A DNA stretch of 64,000 nt from Lachnospiraceae bacterium KH1T2. Its GTDB lineage: Bacteria > Bacillota > Clostridia > Lachnospirales > Lachnospiraceae. The position numbers and the translations under genes were made by a program. Positions within the stretch are counted from its first letter, which is position 1, and the number at the start of each line of letters is the position of its first letter. The stretch spans positions 1 through 64,000 of the forward strand of contig FOSY01000015.1 in assembly GCA_900114405.1 (NCBI GenBank), written 5' to 3'. The notes below the pieces were generated by a model that made no database searches, was not told where the DNA came from, and was given only the letters and a program-made list of their open reading frames with translations. Shown here piece by piece: positions 43,574 to 52,217 of the stretch.

Positions 43574-44923
43574 TTAATCTTCAAGATTATTTTTTCCTTC
43601 ATACAAAGACTTTCTAAATTTTTGTATAAGTGGATATTCATATGATTTCAGATTTTTGTTATAGCACGGTTTATAATTTTTCCAATGATGTTCATATTCC
43701 ATACATACTATATCTGTTTCATACGGACTAAGTGTCTTTCCTTTAACTATTTCAAGAATTCTATTATATTCTTCATCATTCTTTTTATCTAAGTTTTGTC
43801 TGAAAGTACAATTATCATGTATATCTTTTTCTATTACAGCTTTTCCCTTCTCGATATCACCGTCACCTAAATTTTTCAAAAATTCCTCTGCTCTGTTTTT
43901 ATTTCCTGTTCTTATATCGCTATAATAATCCTTCATATATTCCATCAAATTTTTACCTTTTGGAACTTTTGAAAAATTATATGCATCTAGATCTGCCTTA
44001 TAATCATCATTTCCCATACTTGGTTTTGCTCCATTAACTCCAAATAAATCCCCTGCATAACCGGCATTTTTATCAACATCATATATACCGTTTTGATGAC
44101 CTGAATATTTTGATGCAGCATAGTCTGTAAGTGGATCATTGATATTAGCTGCTGCTGTTATGCACATATGTGCAAAATCTGTCTTGCCACCATATCCTTT
44201 TGATTTCTCATTTTTATTATCTAATTGACATTGAATATGTTGATCCTTTATGGCCTTGACAAATTTTTCATATTCACCATCGGTTAAGCCTAGATTTTTT
44301 GGGCTTAATAGAATACTTTCATATTGGTCTGGTCCGCTTGCCAAAAGTTCCCATTTCGGTAAATCGAAAATTGAGTCCTTGTGATATACAATTCTTCCCA
44401 TAAATCTAAAGAATGCCAAATTTCTTTGATCTTCATTTTTATAAAAAGTCGCCAATTTATCATAAATCTTTTTTATTATTGCAGAGGTTTCTTTATCAAA
44501 ACCATATTCTGTCTCGAGCATTTCTTCGATACTTTTATACTCTCCTTGATCTCTGTTTCTGCTATTTTTTGCTTCTGTATTTACTTTAACAGGTGCAGAG
44601 ACGGTTTTTTTAGTTGATTTGAGACTTGAGGTGTTTATTATAGTTTTCTCTGTCGTTTCATATATACATGCCGCATTCTCAAGTGCCTTAGCCAGATTTT
44701 TTGTTTTAACGGCTGCTTCATCACTTTCTTTTGATATTTTTTCTATAACAGGAACAAGCTTTGCATATTCTGACATAGAGGATAGCACTTTAGTTGTCCT
44801 CATTATTCCAATGTTTATCTCGAATATCTTATCTGATATTTTATTTAATTCGTCAGCCTGCGATTTACTCGCAGATGTTTTAATAAAAAACTTACTCAAA
44901 TTATTAATCTCCATTTCTGCCAT
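43574..44923 (-). CDS. putative type VII-type secreted effector
   Basis: About 449 residues, no signal peptide. The first 100 residues are helical and charged, like ESAT-6/LXG-type export domains, followed by a basic Ser/Lys linker. The C-terminal half contains 'KTDFAHMCITAAANIND', 'NAGYAGDLFGVNGAKPSMG' and 'NDDYKADLDAYNFSKV'. I recall this pattern (DFxH...GD...GNDDYKADLDA.N) from C-terminal regions of LXG/T7SS proteins of Bacillota; I cannot verify it here. The start is uncertain: TTG at 44932, ATG at 44923 or ATG at 44914, none with a good ribosome binding site. Its downstream partner could be immunity. AT content is high relative to neighbours. Confidence 0.5.
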   Translation of the reverse strand: MAEMEINNLSKFFIKTSASKSQADELNKISDKIFEINIGIMRTTKVLSSMSEYAKLVPVIEKISKESDEAAVKTKNLAKALENAACIYETTEKTIINTSSLKSTKKTVSAPVKVNTEAKNSRNRDQGEYKSIEEMLETEYGFDKETSAIIKKIYDKLATFYKNEDQRNLAFFRFMGRIVYHKDSIFDLPKWELLASGPDQYESILLSPKNLGLTDGEYEKFVKAIKDQHIQCQLDNKNEKSKGYGGKTDFAHMCITAAANINDPLTDYAASKYSGHQNGIYDVDKNAGYAGDLFGVNGAKPSMGNDDYKADLDAYNFSKVPKGKNLMEYMKDYYSDIRTGNKNRAEEFLKNLGDGDIEKGKAVIEKDIHDNCTFRQNLDKKNDEEYNRILEIVKGKTLSPYETDIVCMEYEHHWKNYKPCYNKNLKSYEYPLIQKFRKSLYEGKNNLED

Positions 44924-44988
44924 CTGTGGCAATTTTTATATTCTGTAACTGGTTCGAATGATATCACTTTTTTTCTTTTTTTTGTGAA

Positions 44989-45220: not shown

Positions 45221-48200
45221 ATGAGGCAGTTTTCTTTTGCAGTAGAAAGAAAAGAGGAAGTAAGTCAATTCGTTGAGAAGGTGAAAGCATGCCCAGAATA
45301 CAAGAATGCATCAGCTGTTCTGGCGCATTTATATATCGGACTTACGGACAGATCTCTTGCTGAGGAAATAATTAAATTTACGAAAGATGAGTTTCCGGGA
45401 GTAAAGGTCGTCGGACACACTAATTCAAACAGCATTATAAGTAATGGCGTCAGAAAGATTGCAACAGAAGGGGTAACGTTCCTTCTTTTTGAAAATTCTG
45501 ACATTGATGTTTTTGAATATGAGTGTACAAATATGTCACCGGAAAAAGCCGGAGATGAATTTTCACAAAAAGTTAATAGCATGAAGAATGTCAAAGGCAT
45601 TCAGTTGATCGTAGATACGGTTCATGTGGAAGTTCAGTCATTTCTGGATCACCTGTATATAGAAGATGATAATATTCGAATATTCGGAAATGGCGCAGGC
45701 GGCGAATATGAAGACATGAATAAAATATTCGATTTCACAGATCACATATTAGACGCGGGAATCATTGCTGTGGTTTATAGCGGAGAAGATCTGGAAATCG
45801 AAACACTTTATGGTTTTGGCTGGTGCCCTATAGGAAAAGAGATGACCGTCACCAAGACAAAAGGACTCCAGTTTTTGGCTGAGCTTGATGGTGAGCCGGT
45901 TTATGATGTATTTAAGAGATACTTAAAAGTTAAGAATGATCAGTATTTTGCAAGGAATACGCTTGATTTTCCTTTGATAGTGCACCGGAAATATATGGAT
46001 GTGGCAAGAGGCTCGCTCGGTCTTAAAGAGGATGGGAGCCTTATAGTTGCGTCTGGAATCCGTGAAGGGGAGAAAGTTCAGCTTTCCTATGGAAACACAC
46101 GTGAGATGCTGGAATCAGCGATTGAAAATGCTAATTGTGCACTTGATTTTCAAGCTCAGGGAATGATCCTGACAGTGTGCGGAAATCGAGAGCAGTATCT
46201 GCAGGGAGATGAGGATACTGAAATTGAGTATTACAGGATTGCCTGCCCCACTGTGAGCGGTCAGTCTGCATATGGGGAGATTGTAAGAGCGGGGAAGAGT
46301 GCAGAACTTCTTAACTGCGCGTTAGTTTCTATGATGTTTCGCGAAGGAAAGAAAAATGATGAAATCTGTAAGACTAATATTTGCGAGATCAAGAAAGAAC
46401 GAGTTCATAATATCATTCCATTATATGAGCGTTTATATACGTTTTTGAATGCGGCATCTGTAGAATATGCAGAACTTAAAGAAGCGCAGAAAGAACAGGA
46501 ACTTAGAAATCAGATAGAAATAGAAAAAGCTGCAAATGAAGCCAAGTCTACATTCCTTTCAAATATGTCTCATGAGATCAGAACTCCGATAAATGCTGTA
46601 CTTGGAATGAATGAGATGATATTGAGAGAATCTCATGAGGAAAGGATACTTGAATATGCGAGAAACATCAGTAATGCAGGAAATACTCTTCTTGGGCTTA
46701 TTAACGATATATTAGATTTTTCAAAGATTGAAGCCGGGAAAATGGAGCTTGTGGAAGCAAATTACAGCATTTCGTCGCTTTTAAATGACTTGTATGTGAT
46801 GATACTTCCAAAGGCAAGGGATAAGGATCTTGAGCTTACCTTTAATGTAGACCCGCAGATACCGGATGAACTCTACGGAGATGAGATAAGGCTAAGACAG
46901 GTAATCTTGAATATAGTCAACAATGCAGTTAAGTATACGAGAGAGGGCGGTGTAACGGTCGAAGTGATGCGCCATCCTGTTTCGGATGAAATTGTTGAAC
47001 TTGAATTTCATATAAAGGACACGGGTATAGGCATAAAAGAGGAAGATCGTGAAAAGTTATTTATGCCTTTTATGCGAATCGAGGAAAACAGAAACCGCGC
47101 GATCGAGGGAACCGGTCTCGGAATGAATATTACGATAAGCCTCTTAAAGCTCATGGATTCAAAGCTTGAGGTGGAGTCGGTATATGGAGAAGGCTCTGAC
47201 TTTTACTTTAAGATAAGGCAGAAGATCATAGATGCAAAACCTGTAGGAAACTTTGAGAAACGTGCAAGGGAAGTACTTGCCTTGCAGAAGGTTCATAAAG
47301 AGTCATTTATCGCGCCGGAGGCAAAAATCATGGTGGTGGATGATACGCCGATGAATCTCATGGTATTCACGGGACTTTTGAAGCGTACCCAGATACAGAT
47401 AGACACAGCTTCAGGCGGTGAAGAGAGCATAAAAAAGGCTCGGAATAAAAAGTATGACATCATTTTTCTTGATCATCGAATGCCAAAGATGGATGGCTCT
47501 GAGGCAATGAGAATTCTAAAAACTGATGAAAAAGGCATGAATAGAGATACGCCTATAATCATACTTACGGCGAATGCTATTGTCGGAATGAAAGAAAATT
47601 TCTTAAAAGAAGGATTTGATGATTATCTTTCGAAGCCGATAGATCCTGATGCGCTTGAAGCTATGATAAGGAAATTCCTAGATGAAAGCAAGGTTGTACT
47701 AACTGGATATATTGAAGGAGTTAATCAGGTGATAAGCTTGATTCCTCAGGATATCAAAAACATCAAAGGAGTGGATATAAAAGCCGGACTTTCTGCTTCG
47801 GGCGGGGAAGAAACTTATATAAGAGTATTAAGAGAGTTAGCCGAAAATTATAAAGGAGTGGAACTAAGGCTTAAAAAAGATGTTTTAGAAGAAGATTTCA
47901 AAGATTACGTGATCAAGGTTCATGCATTGAAAAGTTCGGCAAGGCTTGCAGGAGTTATGGGGCTTTCAAAGCTTGCGGAAAAGCTTGAGCTTGCGGGAGA
48001 TAAAGGCGACTATGAGCTGATACGCAGGACAAATGAGGAGCTCTTGGATAATTATAAAAATCTTGCTGAAAAGATTTTTGACGCATTTAAAAATGAAGAT
48101 ATAAAAATGCCTGGGATAACAAGAGAAAAACTTGGGGAGGCATATGAGGCAATACGTGAGTGCGTTGCAGCCTTTGATTTTGACAGTGCCGACAGTATTA

Positions 48201-48331
48201 TGAAATCTTTGCTGAAGTATAGAATACCGGAGGACAGAAAAGCCGGATTTGAGAAACTGAAGGCATTTATGAATGCTGTAGACAGGGATAAGATTATTGA
48301 ATTACTCATAAAGGAAAGAGGCAGCTTATGA
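45221..48331 (+). CDS. FIST-domain hybrid histidine kinase 1
   Basis: A 1036-residue multidomain kinase with no membrane segments. Order: FIST_N (about 20-215), FIST_C (about 225-390), a short coiled helix, HisKA with phospho-acceptor His451 in 'NMSHEIRTPINAVLGMNE', HATPase ('NIVNNAVKYTREGG', 'DTGIGIKEEDREKLFMPFMR', 'GTGLGMNITISLL'), a receiver domain with Asp751 in 'IIFLDHRMPKMDG', and an HPt domain with His901 in 'KVHALKSSARLAGV'. FIST domains are thought to bind small ligands, perhaps amino acids. The start at 45221 is chosen because AGGAG precedes it and its paralogue starts at the same point. It overlaps the next gene by 4 bases. Confidence 0.92.
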   Translation: MRQFSFAVERKEEVSQFVEKVKACPEYKNASAVLAHLYIGLTDRSLAEEIIKFTKDEFPGVKVVGHTNSNSIISNGVRKIATEGVTFLLFENSDIDVFEYECTNMSPEKAGDEFSQKVNSMKNVKGIQLIVDTVHVEVQSFLDHLYIEDDNIRIFGNGAGGEYEDMNKIFDFTDHILDAGIIAVVYSGEDLEIETLYGFGWCPIGKEMTVTKTKGLQFLAELDGEPVYDVFKRYLKVKNDQYFARNTLDFPLIVHRKYMDVARGSLGLKEDGSLIVASGIREGEKVQLSYGNTREMLESAIENANCALDFQAQGMILTVCGNREQYLQGDEDTEIEYYRIACPTVSGQSAYGEIVRAGKSAELLNCALVSMMFREGKKNDEICKTNICEIKKERVHNIIPLYERLYTFLNAASVEYAELKEAQKEQELRNQIEIEKAANEAKSTFLSNMSHEIRTPINAVLGMNEMILRESHEERILEYARNISNAGNTLLGLINDILDFSKIEAGKMELVEANYSISSLLNDLYVMILPKARDKDLELTFNVDPQIPDELYGDEIRLRQVILNIVNNAVKYTREGGVTVEVMRHPVSDEIVELEFHIKDTGIGIKEEDREKLFMPFMRIEENRNRAIEGTGLGMNITISLLKLMDSKLEVESVYGEGSDFYFKIRQKIIDAKPVGNFEKRAREVLALQKVHKESFIAPEAKIMVVDDTPMNLMVFTGLLKRTQIQIDTASGGEESIKKARNKKYDIIFLDHRMPKMDGSEAMRILKTDEKGMNRDTPIIILTANAIVGMKENFLKEGFDDYLSKPIDPDALEAMIRKFLDESKVVLTGYIEGVNQVISLIPQDIKNIKGVDIKAGLSASGGEETYIRVLRELAENYKGVELRLKKDVLEEDFKDYVIKVHALKSSARLAGVMGLSKLAEKLELAGDKGDYELIRRTNEELLDNYKNLAEKIFDAFKNEDIKMPGITREKLGEAYEAIRECVAAFDFDSADSIMKSLLKYRIPEDRKAGFEKLKAFMNAVDRDKIIELLIKERGSL

Positions 48332-51300
48332 GACAGATTTCATATACATTTACCCGCCCCGAGGAATTATGGCCGATCCTTGATTATCTTCAGTTTCAAG
48401 ATTATTTCAGGAATTCGTCAGAAATATTTGTGCATATAGCGCTCGGTATTCAGAAGTTCGAATATGCAGAAAGGATCATTGAGATCTTAAGGGCTGTAGA
48501 ACATCCGATAAAGATATTTGGATTTACTACAACTATGGAGATCTGCAGCGGACATCAACAAAGCAGCAGTATAGTGGCAAGTTTCATCTTTTTGGAAAAG
48601 AGCAGTGTAGAAATAAAGGTATTTGACTGTGAGTATATAAGCGAAAAAGAAGCAGCGAAGGAAGCGAGCGAGTGGATAGATCAGTTCCCGGACGCTGTAC
48701 TTGCAGAACTTGTTCAAAATGAGCTTAATCTCACGAATGCGATGGACTTTAGAAATAATCTGAAGCCGGCAAATAAAGATCTGAAGATTGTTGGATGCTG
48801 TGCTTCTACAACGATGGATGAGCATGGAAAAATATTTGTTTTTTCTGACAGGACGGTAGTTAAGGGAATAATGCTGGCTGTTTTCAGAGGAGAAGATCTG
48901 CATTGCACAACGGCTTATACTCTCGGATGGACTCCGGCAGGAAGAAAGCATACTGTCACCAAAAAGCTTGGAAAAAACTGGATATATGAAATTGACGGAA
49001 GACCAATAAAGGAGCTCTATTATAAATATTTTGGGATAGAAGATGATGAAAAATTCTGCTCAAATGTGATGGAGTTTCCGGTCATTGTAAATCAAAATGG
49101 CGTGGATGTTGCGAGATGCCCGATAAGGGATAATAAGGACGGCGGACTATTTTTTGCAGCAGATGTGAAAGAAGGCGACAGGATATCCTTTTCAGTCGGA
49201 AATACTTCGGAAATTCTGCGTCAGTCAAATGAAAATGCCAAGAAGATAATACTGTTTGAACCACAGGCGATGATAATGAGCATATGTGTGAACAGGCAGT
49301 CGTATCTGGACGCTGAGCAGCAGTTTGAGATAAATTTTTATAAGAAGGCAGGTATTGATATAAGCGGATGCTCGGCATTTGGAGAGTTATATGGAACAGG
49401 TGAGCTGATCTACTATTTTAACAGCGCGCTTGTTGTGATGGCTTTACGGGAAGGACCGATAAAGAATTATGATAAAAGCAGGGAATTGGTAGAGTCTGAT
49501 GAAATGAAATGGCCGGATAAGACAATTCCGCTTTTTGACAGGATAGCGAGATTCATGAGGGTCTCAACTCAGGAATACATGGAACTGCAGGAGAAGGAGC
49601 ATGAAAGAGAGCTTGAACAGATGGTGGAGATCGAGAAAGCTGCTAATGAAGCTAAATCGAGCTTCCTTTCAAATATGTCTCACGAGATCAGAACTCCGAT
49701 AAATGCAGTGCTTGGTATGAACGAAATGATACTTCGTGAGTCGAAAGACAAGCAGATACTTGAGTATGCGCGGAATATCAATAACGCCGGAATAACTTTG
49801 CTGGGGCTGATAAATGATATTCTGGACTTCTCAAAGATCGAGGCCGGAAAGATGGAGATCATCTCGGCAGAGTATTCGGTAAGTTCGATGCTTAATGACC
49901 TGATAGTGATGGTTAATACAAAAGCAAGAGATAAAGGGCTTAACCTCACTGCCAGAGTAGATGAAGAAACGCCGGATATACTCTGCGGCGATGAGATGCG
50001 CATAAGGCAGGTAATATTAAATATCCTGAATAATGCTGTTAAATATACTGAAAAGGGAAATGTAACTCTTACCATGGATTACAAAGACCTTTCGGAAGAT
50101 GAGATAGAGCTTGAATTTCATGTGCTCGACACAGGAATAGGAATCAAGAAAGAGGATATAGACAAGCTTTTTTCACCATTTCAGAGGATTGAGGAAAACA
50201 GGAACCGTACAATCGAAGGAACAGGCCTGGGAATGAGTATAACCAAGAAACTGCTTGAGATGATGGGAAGTCAGCTAGAGGTGAGCAGTGAGTATGGGAA
50301 AGGCTCTGACTTCGGCTTTAGGCTGAGGCAGCAGGTGATAAGACGTGATCCGGTAGGCAACTTTGAAGAAAAGGCAAGGCATAACAGTGCAGCACAAAGG
50401 GCGTTTAGAGAAAGCTTCACTGCGCCGGATGCAAGAGTGCTTGTGGTTGATGACACATCGATGAATATAACGGTGTTTGTAAATCTGCTTAAACGTACTG
50501 AAATTCAGATAGATACGGCAGAGAGTGGACCGGAAGCTATCGCGCTGTCGGCAATGAAGCGCTATGACATTATTTTTATGGATCAAAGGATGCCGAAGAT
50601 GAGCGGAACTGAGGCGATGAAACGCATAAGGTCTGAGAGCAGATGCAGGAATAATCATGGAACCCCGATAATCGTGCTGACGGCTAATGCGGTGACAGGA
50701 ATGAAGGAGCAGTTCCTTAGGGAAGGCTTTGATGACTATATCTCAAAGCCGGTAGACCCGCAGATGCTTGAGGCAATGATCCAGAAATATCTGCCGAAGG
50801 AATTGGTCAAGAAGATAGAAGTTTCTTACGAGGAAGAAGAGGAAGTACTGATAATACCGGAACTTCCGCCGGAGATTCAGCGGATCGAGGATATTAATGT
50901 ACGTTCCGGTCTGACATATTGCGGAGGCGAGGAAACTTATATAAGGGTGCTTAAGGAATTTGCTGCAGGTGCGCAGACAAATATTGAAAACCTTGAAAGA
51001 TTTATAGAAGAGGGCGATTACAGAAATTACACGATCAAGGTACATGCTCTTAAGAGTGCGGCAAGACTTGCTGGAGCTATGAAAATTTCTTCACTTGCAG
51101 AGCAGCTTGAAGCTAGTGGAGATAGTGGCGATTATGAAAATATTCAAAGACAGAATCCTTGGCTTATGAAGCAGTATGCGGCGGTAGCGTATAGACTTAG
51201 AGAATTGTTTGAGGAGTTCGCAAATTCAGACAAAAGGGAGCTTATCGATATGGAAAGTCTTAGGGAAGCGTATGAGGGAATCTCCGAATGTATGGAGGCC

Positions 51301-51444
51301 TTTGACTTTGACAGTGCAGACAGTATATTGAAGTCTCTTAAGAAATATGCAATTCCGGATGAAGAGAAGGAAAGATTTTCTAAGCTGGAGCTGCTTATGG
51401 CATCGGTTGAACGCGATGGGATAATTGAGCTGCTTAAGCAGTGA
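48328..51444 (+). CDS. FIST-domain hybrid histidine kinase 2
   Basis: A 1038-residue paralogue of the preceding kinase with the same domain order: FIST_N, FIST_C, HisKA (His452 in 'NMSHEIRTPINAVLGMNE'), HATPase ('DTGIGIKKEDIDKLFSPFQR', 'GTGLGMSITKKLL'), receiver (Asp752 in 'IIFMDQRMPKMSG') and HPt (His906 in 'KVHALKSAARLAGA'). The kinase cores are highly alike, whereas the FIST sensors are much more diverged, so the two may sense different ligands. Catalytic residues look intact. Start and stop overlap both neighbours, giving a coupled three-gene operon. Confidence 0.92.
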   Translation: MRQISYTFTRPEELWPILDYLQFQDYFRNSSEIFVHIALGIQKFEYAERIIEILRAVEHPIKIFGFTTTMEICSGHQQSSSIVASFIFLEKSSVEIKVFDCEYISEKEAAKEASEWIDQFPDAVLAELVQNELNLTNAMDFRNNLKPANKDLKIVGCCASTTMDEHGKIFVFSDRTVVKGIMLAVFRGEDLHCTTAYTLGWTPAGRKHTVTKKLGKNWIYEIDGRPIKELYYKYFGIEDDEKFCSNVMEFPVIVNQNGVDVARCPIRDNKDGGLFFAADVKEGDRISFSVGNTSEILRQSNENAKKIILFEPQAMIMSICVNRQSYLDAEQQFEINFYKKAGIDISGCSAFGELYGTGELIYYFNSALVVMALREGPIKNYDKSRELVESDEMKWPDKTIPLFDRIARFMRVSTQEYMELQEKEHERELEQMVEIEKAANEAKSSFLSNMSHEIRTPINAVLGMNEMILRESKDKQILEYARNINNAGITLLGLINDILDFSKIEAGKMEIISAEYSVSSMLNDLIVMVNTKARDKGLNLTARVDEETPDILCGDEMRIRQVILNILNNAVKYTEKGNVTLTMDYKDLSEDEIELEFHVLDTGIGIKKEDIDKLFSPFQRIEENRNRTIEGTGLGMSITKKLLEMMGSQLEVSSEYGKGSDFGFRLRQQVIRRDPVGNFEEKARHNSAAQRAFRESFTAPDARVLVVDDTSMNITVFVNLLKRTEIQIDTAESGPEAIALSAMKRYDIIFMDQRMPKMSGTEAMKRIRSESRCRNNHGTPIIVLTANAVTGMKEQFLREGFDDYISKPVDPQMLEAMIQKYLPKELVKKIEVSYEEEEEVLIIPELPPEIQRIEDINVRSGLTYCGGEETYIRVLKEFAAGAQTNIENLERFIEEGDYRNYTIKVHALKSAARLAGAMKISSLAEQLEASGDSGDYENIQRQNPWLMKQYAAVAYRLRELFEEFANSDKRELIDMESLREAYEGISECMEAFDFDSADSILKSLKKYAIPDEEKERFSKLELLMASVERDGIIELLKQ

Positions 51445-51455
51445 AGGGGGATAAG

Positions 51456-52217
51456 ATGGATAATAATGTGATTGTTATTAGTAAGGGTCTGACATTCATG
51501 GTTAATACGATATTTGAAAAGCTTAAGGAATCAGGCTATGAACCGATAGATGCGAGACCGGCGGTGGAGGACCTTAAGGAAAAGCTGGAAATGTCGGATC
51601 TTATAGTGGTATATCTGGGAGATTTTATATCGGAATCCGGCGAGGCTTTTATCTACCTTAGGGATGTCTGCCTTGAGAGTGAAAAATTTTTGTACCTCAT
51701 AGGCTCTAAAGAAGAACTCAAAGAAGTGAAGAAGCTGCTGGCAGCGGATGTCGTGAGCTGTGAGTTTGAGAGACCTATCAACGTTAAGGATCTTATCAAC
51801 ACCATGGGAGAGACAAGGGACGAGAGTGTAAGGAAAAAGTCTATACTCGTGGTGGATGATGATGGAATGTTCCTTAGGTCTGTTCATGACTGGCTTTCGG
51901 ACAAGTACAGAGTTACTATGGTTAATTCGGGGATGAATGCGATAACCTATCTGGCGAAGCATACACCGGATCTGATACTGCTTGACTATGAAATGCCGAT
52001 AGCTAGCGGTCCTAAGGTGCTTGAGATGATACGCTCTGAAACTTCGACTAGTGACACCCCTGTAATGTTCCTTACGGGAAAAGGTGATAAGGAAAGTGTT
52101 ATGAAAGTTCTAGCACTTAAGCCGAATGGATATCTCTTAAAGACAATGAAGCCGATGGAGATCCATCAGGCAGTAGATGATTTCTTCAGAGCAAATAAGT
52201 ATAAAAAGATGGAATGA
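51456..52217 (+). CDS. two-receiver response regulator without output domain
   Basis: A 253-residue protein. The first 120 residues look like a degenerate receiver ('VIVISKGLTFMVNTIFEKLKESGYE', 'DLIVVYLGDF') lacking a clear acidic pocket. The second half is a canonical receiver: 'SILVVDDDGMFLRS', phospho-acceptor Asp177 in 'DLILLDYEMP', 'TGKGD' and Lys in 'YLLKTMKP'. No DNA-binding or enzymatic output follows. It is the likely target of the HPt domains of the two upstream kinases. The ATG at 51456 with AAGGGGG before it is preferred over a GTG at 51441. Confidence 0.88.
   Translation: MDNNVIVISKGLTFMVNTIFEKLKESGYEPIDARPAVEDLKEKLEMSDLIVVYLGDFISESGEAFIYLRDVCLESEKFLYLIGSKEELKEVKKLLAADVVSCEFERPINVKDLINTMGETRDESVRKKSILVVDDDGMFLRSVHDWLSDKYRVTMVNSGMNAITYLAKHTPDLILLDYEMPIASGPKVLEMIRSETSTSDTPVMFLTGKGDKESVMKVLALKPNGYLLKTMKPMEIHQAVDDFFRANKYKKME

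Follow-up and report, generated by a model that had tools for sequence, protein, structure and literature searches.

Several described signaling systems contain parts resembling those considered here. In the available excerpts of the papers cited, the FIST protein NosP binds heme, senses nitric oxide and acts on the histidine kinase NahK/NosK (PMC12570481); the Vibrio kinases LuxQ, CqsS, VpsS and CqsR converge on LuxO via LuxU, with the FIST gene vpsV located upstream of vpsS (PMC4398556); FrzZ is made up solely of two receiver folds in tandem (PMC4618731); and the interaction between the receiver and pseudo-receiver of PleD changes upon phosphorylation, as recounted in a 2025 review in which pseudo-receiver switching is called a mystery (PMC12632262). 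Here, a 64,000-nucleotide stretch of DNA from the gut-type Lachnospiraceae bacterium KH1T2 (contig FOSY01000015.1, positions 1 to 64,000; hereafter the window) was analyzed with respect to three consecutive genes. These encode two hybrid histidine kinases with FIST sensors, K1 and K2, and a regulator, RR2, in which a pseudo-receiver (REC1) is followed by an intact receiver (REC2). The three genes probably constitute one signaling operon, in which both FIST kinases would relay phosphate via their own histidine phosphotransfer (HPt) domains to REC2 of RR2, with an output at the protein level. Judged from sequence, a two-kinase, one-regulator phosphorelay that is mostly ordinary is the most likely arrangement.

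The order FIST_N-FIST_C-HisKA-HATPase-receiver-HPt given for both kinases in the initial annotation was recovered, although a further C-terminal domain (CT) had been overlooked. FIST, FIST_C, HisKA, HATPase_c and Response_reg all scored above the Pfam cut-offs in K1 and K2, and both kinases thus belong to the FIST family. For Pfam Hpt (cut-off 24.6 bits), K2 passed and K1 fell below (Table 1), but K1 carries the same HALKS motif as K2. The best solved matches to the K2 HPt model were likewise HPt domains (3myf_B over 112 residues, with a root mean square deviation (rmsd) of 2.0). The H box, the N, G1 and G2 boxes, the receiver D-D/D/T/K residues and the HPt histidine are intact in both proteins. 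No membrane-helix-like hydrophobic stretch was found in either kinase (maximal 19-residue Kyte-Doolittle means of 1.18 for K1 and 1.28 for K2), in agreement with their earlier description as soluble. The NCBIfam equivalog cut-offs for BarA, TorS and ArcB were not reached, the best scores being 362.9 (BarA) for K1 and 350 for K2 against 890; in a comparison of the FIST domains with NCBIfam NosP (cut-off 450), K2 scored 23.9 bits and K1 gave no match. A search by sequence for a solved FIST relative returned chance matches only. Structures of the FIST domain of FBXO22 are described in the available parts of PMC11185555 and PMC13316043.

The CT domain comprises ∼70 residues after the HPt domain and has no family near cut-off in Pfam or NCBIfam. 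In a model of HPt-CT with a mean predicted local distance difference test score (pLDDT) of 94.0, CT forms four helices. Comparison of CT with PDB profiles gave weak, apparently chance helical matches, and the matches listed in a fold search with HPt-CT all fell on HPt, so that fold relatives of CT were not isolated. An HPt-CT terminus was observed in 43 of 52 FIST hybrid kinases; four have HPt without CT and HPt was not detected in five, at least one protein in each of these two groups being cut off. CT carries the motif FDxDSxD...Y, is present in many hybrid kinases and was encountered in Synergistales-labelled records as well (L006, L007).

The C-terminal half of RR2 is a canonical receiver, and the N-terminal half gave no Pfam match at an E-value of 1. 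A REC1 profile aligned with kinase receivers over 116 columns at an E-value of 1.1e-4, a weak match with a probability of only 55.8%, and with the C-terminal half of RR2 itself at 57.7%, compared with 1.0 and 0.3% for the HPt and CT controls. An AlphaFold model computed from a four-row alignment consists of two (beta-alpha)5 domains (mean pLDDT 83.6); its predicted template modeling score of 0.57 makes their mutual placement unreliable. The matches listed in a fold search with RR2 were all to the C-terminal half, and the assignment of REC1 therefore relies on the profile comparison and the predicted fold. In the profile alignment, REC1 lacks the acid pair, the acceptor Asp, the Thr and the Lys of a receiver, and Tyr-53, Gly-83 and Arg-106-Pro-107 occupy the phospho-Asp, Thr and Lys-Pro positions, respectively. 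Given that these four residues are retained in at least 90% of 30 aligned RR2 N-terminal halves, REC1 most likely represents a pseudo-receiver that bears a conserved signature of its own, rather than a randomly decaying receiver. RR2 of the window, itself among the defining rows, has this signature followed by an intact REC2. Response_reg is the sole Pfam domain, the chain ends after REC2 and GGDEF is absent. The earlier account of a regulator with one degenerate and one intact receiver and no output domain is thereby upheld.

RR2 is part of a locally expanded paralogue set within an otherwise ordinary bacterial signaling family. The REC1 profile, built partly from sequences among the same 48 genus genomes, detected RR2 in 46 of them (184 matches summed per genome, 0-8 copies each). 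In a sample of the class, RR2 was found in at least 9 of 391 genomes, the window's own included and all from the same family; with at most 11 candidates scored per genome, this count is a lower bound. Viral contigs contained no relative of RR2 or of the K2 FIST domain. Among 33 non-redundant RR2s, taken from loci reached via RR2 matches (mostly the closest ones, hence not random), 28 are immediately preceded by a hybrid kinase gene on the same strand, four are not and one lies at a contig end. The sensors of the linked kinases differ, and include FIST, membrane N-termini with a HAMP-like stretch below the Pfam cut-off (L187) and a Reg_prop propeller (L252).

RR2 follows 45 of 75 HPt-bearing hybrid kinases and none of 11 without HPt (Fisher p = 1.3e-4), in a non-random set selected via FIST and RR2 matches (loci L143-L202, L234-L253 and L284-L295). 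A separate REC-HPt-CT protein adjoins RR2 in three loci (L308, L309 and L149, of which the L149 kinase also has HPt), and a single protein with the order REC-HPt-pseudoreceiver-REC (L307:4435-6051) represents a natural HPt-RR2 fusion. The gene association, the adjoining HPt proteins and the L307 fusion together provide the best support for a transfer of phosphate from HPt to RR2.

In the mechanism proposed, K1, K2 and RR2 would be co-transcribed as a single operon. The FIST domain of each kinase would sense a cytosolic ligand or state, and the kinase would autophosphorylate on the HisKA histidine, from which the phosphate would move to the receiver and on to the HPt domain of the same protein. 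Both HPt domains would donate to the REC2 aspartate of RR2; phosphorylation of REC2 may alter its packing against REC1, such that the two-domain surface acts on another protein. The second FIST kinase would be a lineage-specific addition that arose by old tandem duplication. The suggestion in the initial annotation that two inputs merge on one regulator with protein-protein output is still the preferred interpretation, since RR2s often adjoin HPt kinases and RR2 itself is without an output domain. The evidence originally offered, divergence of the sensors, does not discriminate (see below).

A number of observations weigh against this phosphorelay. Across 48 linked pairs, RR2 and kinase distances correlate (Mantel r of 0.58-0.77, p = 0.0005), and the partial correlation of HPt with REC2 given the kinase core is 0.52. 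However, the correlation is not specific to HPt, since all kinase domains and FIST correlate (CT gives r = 0.74 with both RR2 halves, about equal to the other kinase domains), and the partial value is 0.01 among the 14 FIST-linked pairs. Common descent can therefore explain the correlation, and HPt-specific coevolution with RR2 is not established. No RR2 follows 30 of the 75 HPt kinases, and in L250 the kinase adjoining RR2 lacks HPt and comes immediately after RR2 rather than ahead of it. The RR2s nearest to that of the window (68-69%), in congeners G023, G024, G039 and G040, have no adjoining kinase. FIST kinases of these four congeners (L155, L156, L005 and L151), which rank with those most similar to K1 and K2, are located elsewhere and may still be partners of the orphan RR2s. 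(L005, from uncultured Lachnospiraceae bacterium Rumen_Coassembly_mag_2069, is identical in sequence to the G039 locus L157.) The solved FIST domain of FBXO22 has no obvious ligand pocket (PMC11185555), and a ligand-sensing role of FIST should therefore not be taken for granted. The FIST trees do not unite K1 and K2, though their sisterhood is not rejected (approximately unbiased (AU) test, p = 0.11). Finally, the genes downstream are diverse. A downstream gene was in view for 65 RR2s, and in 40 of these cases it is co-directional and lies within 150 bp; in a Pfam scan of all 40, GGDEF and/or EAL was found in five (L163, L288, L311, L317 and L318) and HD_5 in one more (L252), and the remaining 34 are mostly metabolic, transport or unassigned genes, plus two kinases. 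In the window, the next gene after RR2 encodes a D-alanyl-D-alanine carboxypeptidase.

The contrast between conserved kinase cores and diverged sensors, from which two inputs had been argued, is real: K1 and K2 are 66.7% identical in the core and 30.8% in FIST (by domain, FIST_N 27.5, FIST_C 36, HisKA 89, HATPase 66, REC 62, HPt 50 and CT 59%). As an argument it does not discriminate. Among 51 of the 52 FIST hybrid kinases (one with a truncated FIST omitted, near-copies retained), core identity exceeded FIST identity in 1274 of 1275 pairs, with medians of 53.9 and 26.1%. The K1/K2 contrast thus shows no special divergence of input; it is the norm of the family and says little about distinct ligands. 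FIST domains as alike as the cores, the outcome named beforehand as contrary, were not found here and could hardly occur in this family. In the 36 pairs with a core identity of 64-69.5% (K1/K2 included), the median FIST identity was 33.2%, and seven pairs, counting K1/K2, lay at or below 30.8%. In a quadratic fit of FIST against core identity, 17 of the 1275 pairs had a lower residual than K1/K2, and K1/K2 thus lies near the lower limit of the trend.

The proposed comparison of phylogenies gave a divided answer. In core trees, K1 and K2 are sisters, with support of 98/83 in a 45-row tree (seven truncated or near-identical kinases of the 52 left out) and 96/96 in an 18-row tree whose rows were picked after viewing the 45-row FIST tree; support in the HPt-CT tree (17 rows) was 88/84. 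In the FIST trees, K1 falls outside K2 and its kin (97/90 with 45 rows; 91/92 for the same branch with 18 rows). Core topology tests gave p = 0.059 for K2 with others excluding K1 and p = 0.0385 for K2 with the L160 group. Acquisition of either sensor from elsewhere was considered and, by the AU value above, is not shown. Recent gene conversion of the K1/K2 core was also considered, and no sign of it was seen: identical codons at shared residues vary from 26 to 66% along the gene, values that unlinked pairs also show. The apparent saturation of synonymous sites would fit an old split. The simplest account of these sequences would be one old tandem duplication with fast-evolving sensors.

The high identity of HisKA bears on a different possibility, namely that K1 and K2 form a mixed dimer in which two FIST sensors act jointly on the kinase (AND-like or as a ratio) before the relay. 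HisKA is the dimer domain, the segment at K2 residues 451-500 is 88% identical between K1 and K2, the highest value among seven pairs compared, and the 4-bp gene overlap favors coupled translation. However, the six other FIST-kinase pairs, each from different genomes, reach 74-82% identity over this stretch, such that K1/K2 is little above the norm, and a heterodimer is considered unlikely.

It is rather improbable that K1 and K2 are redundant old duplicates and that RR2 serves as a phosphate sink or buffer tuning the kinases instead of as an output protein. Sink receivers are known in other systems, and both the missing output domain of RR2 and the saturated-looking synonymous sites of K1/K2 would fit. 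A plain sink would nevertheless have no need of REC1, which is kept with its signature across the family, and a pseudoreceiver-REC fused to an HD-GYP-type HD domain exists (L306:2556-3959), its REC looking by eye like the ordinary HD-GYP kind. That the relays end on unlinked regulators, RR2 not being the main target and the operon reflecting mere co-inheritance, is very unlikely: the 30 HPt kinases without a following RR2 and the four congeners in which the FIST kinase and the nearest RR2 are not linked are in its favor, but none of the 11 kinases without HPt is followed by RR2, and HPt also occurs in separate proteins next to RR2 or in fusion with it.

For the preferred two-kinase phosphorelay, the genes following RR2 provide some indication of a target. 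No single gene type follows RR2. The 40 neighbors include orthologue groups, and manual grouping leaves ∼29 independent cases, four of them GGDEF/EAL. The genome of the window contains 45 GGDEF and 17 EAL places, corresponding by manual count to ∼35 proteins, or 1.0% of an assumed 3,400 genes. At a background of 1.03%, the chance probabilities of 5 in 40 and 4 in 29 are 6e-5 and 2e-4, and at 3% they are 0.007 and 0.011. Given that signaling genes cluster in general, this excess is a hint only. The L306 fusion to an HD-GYP-type domain is a further hint of this kind. Enzymes of cyclic di-GMP (c-di-GMP) are, with low confidence, the best-supported candidate target class of RR2. As separate observations that may hint at a regulon, an FGGY-family carbohydrate kinase is the next gene after RR2 in six loci (L193, L194, L200, L202, L241 and L129) and an amino acid kinase family protein in four (L188, L189, L190 and L118).

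The side-by-side FIST kinase pair is the unusual feature of the locus, the parts of which are of known kinds. Among the loci examined, many of which end at contig edges where pairs could be missed, two FIST open reading frames (ORFs) were present only in the window and in L215, which is the same place. In 299 genomes of the family searched at an E-value of 1e-15, a neighboring FIST pair was seen, among the matches listed, in no genome but that of the window. One genome of the genus list (G019) has two FIST places ∼4 kb apart on opposite strands, in frames of 363 and 1479 residues; judging by these frames, they do not form a tandem kinase pair. No description of an RR2-type regulator family was recognized in the titles listed and excerpts covered by searches of the open-licence PubMed Central literature; the tandem FIST pair and the HPt-linked pseudo-receiver and receiver family are variants for which these searches gave no description. 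A bolder proposal would make of RR2 a Lachnospiraceae-restricted, genus-amplified Tyr/Gly/Arg-Pro switch class, each copy wired to a differently sensing hybrid kinase with a shared c-di-GMP-network output, and here fed by two FIST kinases, possibly as a heterodimer; taken as a whole, this is rather improbable.

Table 1. Features of the K1-K2-RR2 locus (positions in the window)
Feature	Position	Strand	Remarks
K1, cytosolic hybrid histidine kinase, 1036 residues	45221..48331	+	ORF finder start 45200
K1 FIST N domain	45347..45895	+	PF08495, 73.6 bits
K1 FIST_C	45905..46285	+	PF10442, 53.6 bits
K1 HisKA	46541..46738	+	PF00512
K1 HATPase_c	46877..47221	+	PF02518
K1 receiver	47327..47671	+	PF00072; D-D/D/T/K present
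K1 HPt	47768..48076	+	Home-built hidden Markov model (locus L215); Pfam Hpt sub-threshold, 21.8 bits; HALKS motif
K1 C-terminal helical domain (CT)	48110..48307	+	No Pfam/NCBIfam family near cut-off
K2, cytosolic hybrid histidine kinase, 1038 residues	48328..51444	+	4-bp overlap with K1
K2 FIST N domain	48463..49002	+	PF08495, 77.7 bits
K2 FIST_C	49012..49392	+	PF10442, 52.2 bits
K2 HisKA	49651..49848	+	Pfam
K2 HATPase_c	49987..50331	+	Pfam
K2 receiver	50437..50784	+	Pfam
K2 HPt	50890..51198	+	Pfam, 31.3 bits; fold match 3myf_B, Z 16.6
K2 C-terminal helical domain (CT)	51235..51435	+	Four helices, block pLDDT 93-98
RR2, pseudo-receiver and receiver regulator, 253 residues	51456..52217	+	258 residues with GTG start at 51441
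RR2 REC1, pseudo-receiver	51456..51818	+	Tyr at phospho-Asp position, Gly at Thr, Arg-Pro at Lys-Pro
RR2 REC2, intact receiver	51834..52199	+	VVDDD, LLDYEMP, FLTG, LLK; PF00072, 79.3 bits; Z ∼20 to solved receivers

The two kinase ORFs were confirmed at the lengths and with the overlap originally reported, the K2 start falling within the K1 stop. For K1, the ATG at 45221 has a good ribosome-binding site by eye (aggag), aligns with the MRQ start of K2 and sets at position 3 a Gln that is invariant across 27 aligned FIST domains; the upstream start chosen by the ORF finder would extend the protein to 1043 residues. The description of the regulator as overlapping K2 depends on the GTG at 51441. 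Because the ATG at 51456 has a better Shine-Dalgarno sequence (aaggggg, by eye) and is the first Met retained in most RR2 family members, it is probably the start, leaving an 11-bp gap after K2 instead of an overlap. A promoter scan gave 19 matches against 17.9 in shuffled sequences and a terminator scan four against 4.0, and neither element is claimed; a longer imperfect hairpin with a T run was noted by eye 3' of RR2. Upstream of K1 lies a divergent ORF of 452 residues (window 43574-44932, - strand).

Other kinases and FIST proteins were noted in the course of this work. In the same genome, a hybrid kinase with a membrane-like N-terminus (L234:6354-9359, G000:C42) shares 47% identity with K2 in the C-terminal 600 residues; it has no adjacent RR2 and is a candidate third input to RR2 of the window. 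The same genome also contains a 587-residue frame with FIST and GGDEF (L239, G000:C33) and a stand-alone FIST protein beside a soluble chemoreceptor-like protein, named by eye (L240, G000:C34). The hybrid kinase directly after RR2 in L250 (L250:1458-4373) has an amino acid permease as its N-terminal half.

If correct, the proposed phosphorelay would constitute a route to signal merging without a transcription factor, in which numerous sensor kinases would each signal to a dedicated copy of a common pseudo-receiver/receiver adaptor. The RR2 family would also make pseudo-receiver switching testable: its signature is fixed, the pseudo-receiver shares a chain with a receiver that can be phosphorylated, and fused forms with HPt or with an HD-GYP-type domain occur in nature.

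In comparison with known systems, K1 and K2 share the relay order HisKA-HATPase-REC-HPt with BarA, ArcB and TorS, and BarA and TorS provide their best NCBIfam matches. The scores are far under the cut-offs, however, and K1 and K2 have a cytosolic FIST sensor, the extra CT domain and a separate pseudo-receiver regulator, whereas the input of BarA, ArcB and TorS is periplasmic or at the membrane. As with NosP and NahK/NosK, FIST would control a histidine kinase, but NosP is a separate protein and the FIST domains of K1 and K2 are fused to the kinase. The merging of several hybrid kinases on one regulator through HPt recalls the Vibrio LuxO system, in which the HPt protein LuxU is separate rather than fused and LuxO, unlike RR2, has an output domain. 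PleD (REC-pseudo-receiver-GGDEF) likewise combines a receiver and a pseudo-receiver in one regulator, and the RR2 model aligned with PleD (2wb4) over residues 2-253 with a Z of 18.5 but an rmsd of 15.2; in RR2, the order is reversed, with the pseudo-receiver first, and GGDEF is lacking. FrzZ resembles RR2 in having two tandem receiver folds and no output domain. Both receivers of FrzZ are functional, whereas the first receiver of RR2 is without catalytic residues, and the likely partner of RR2 is an HPt hybrid kinase rather than a chemosensory CheA-type kinase.

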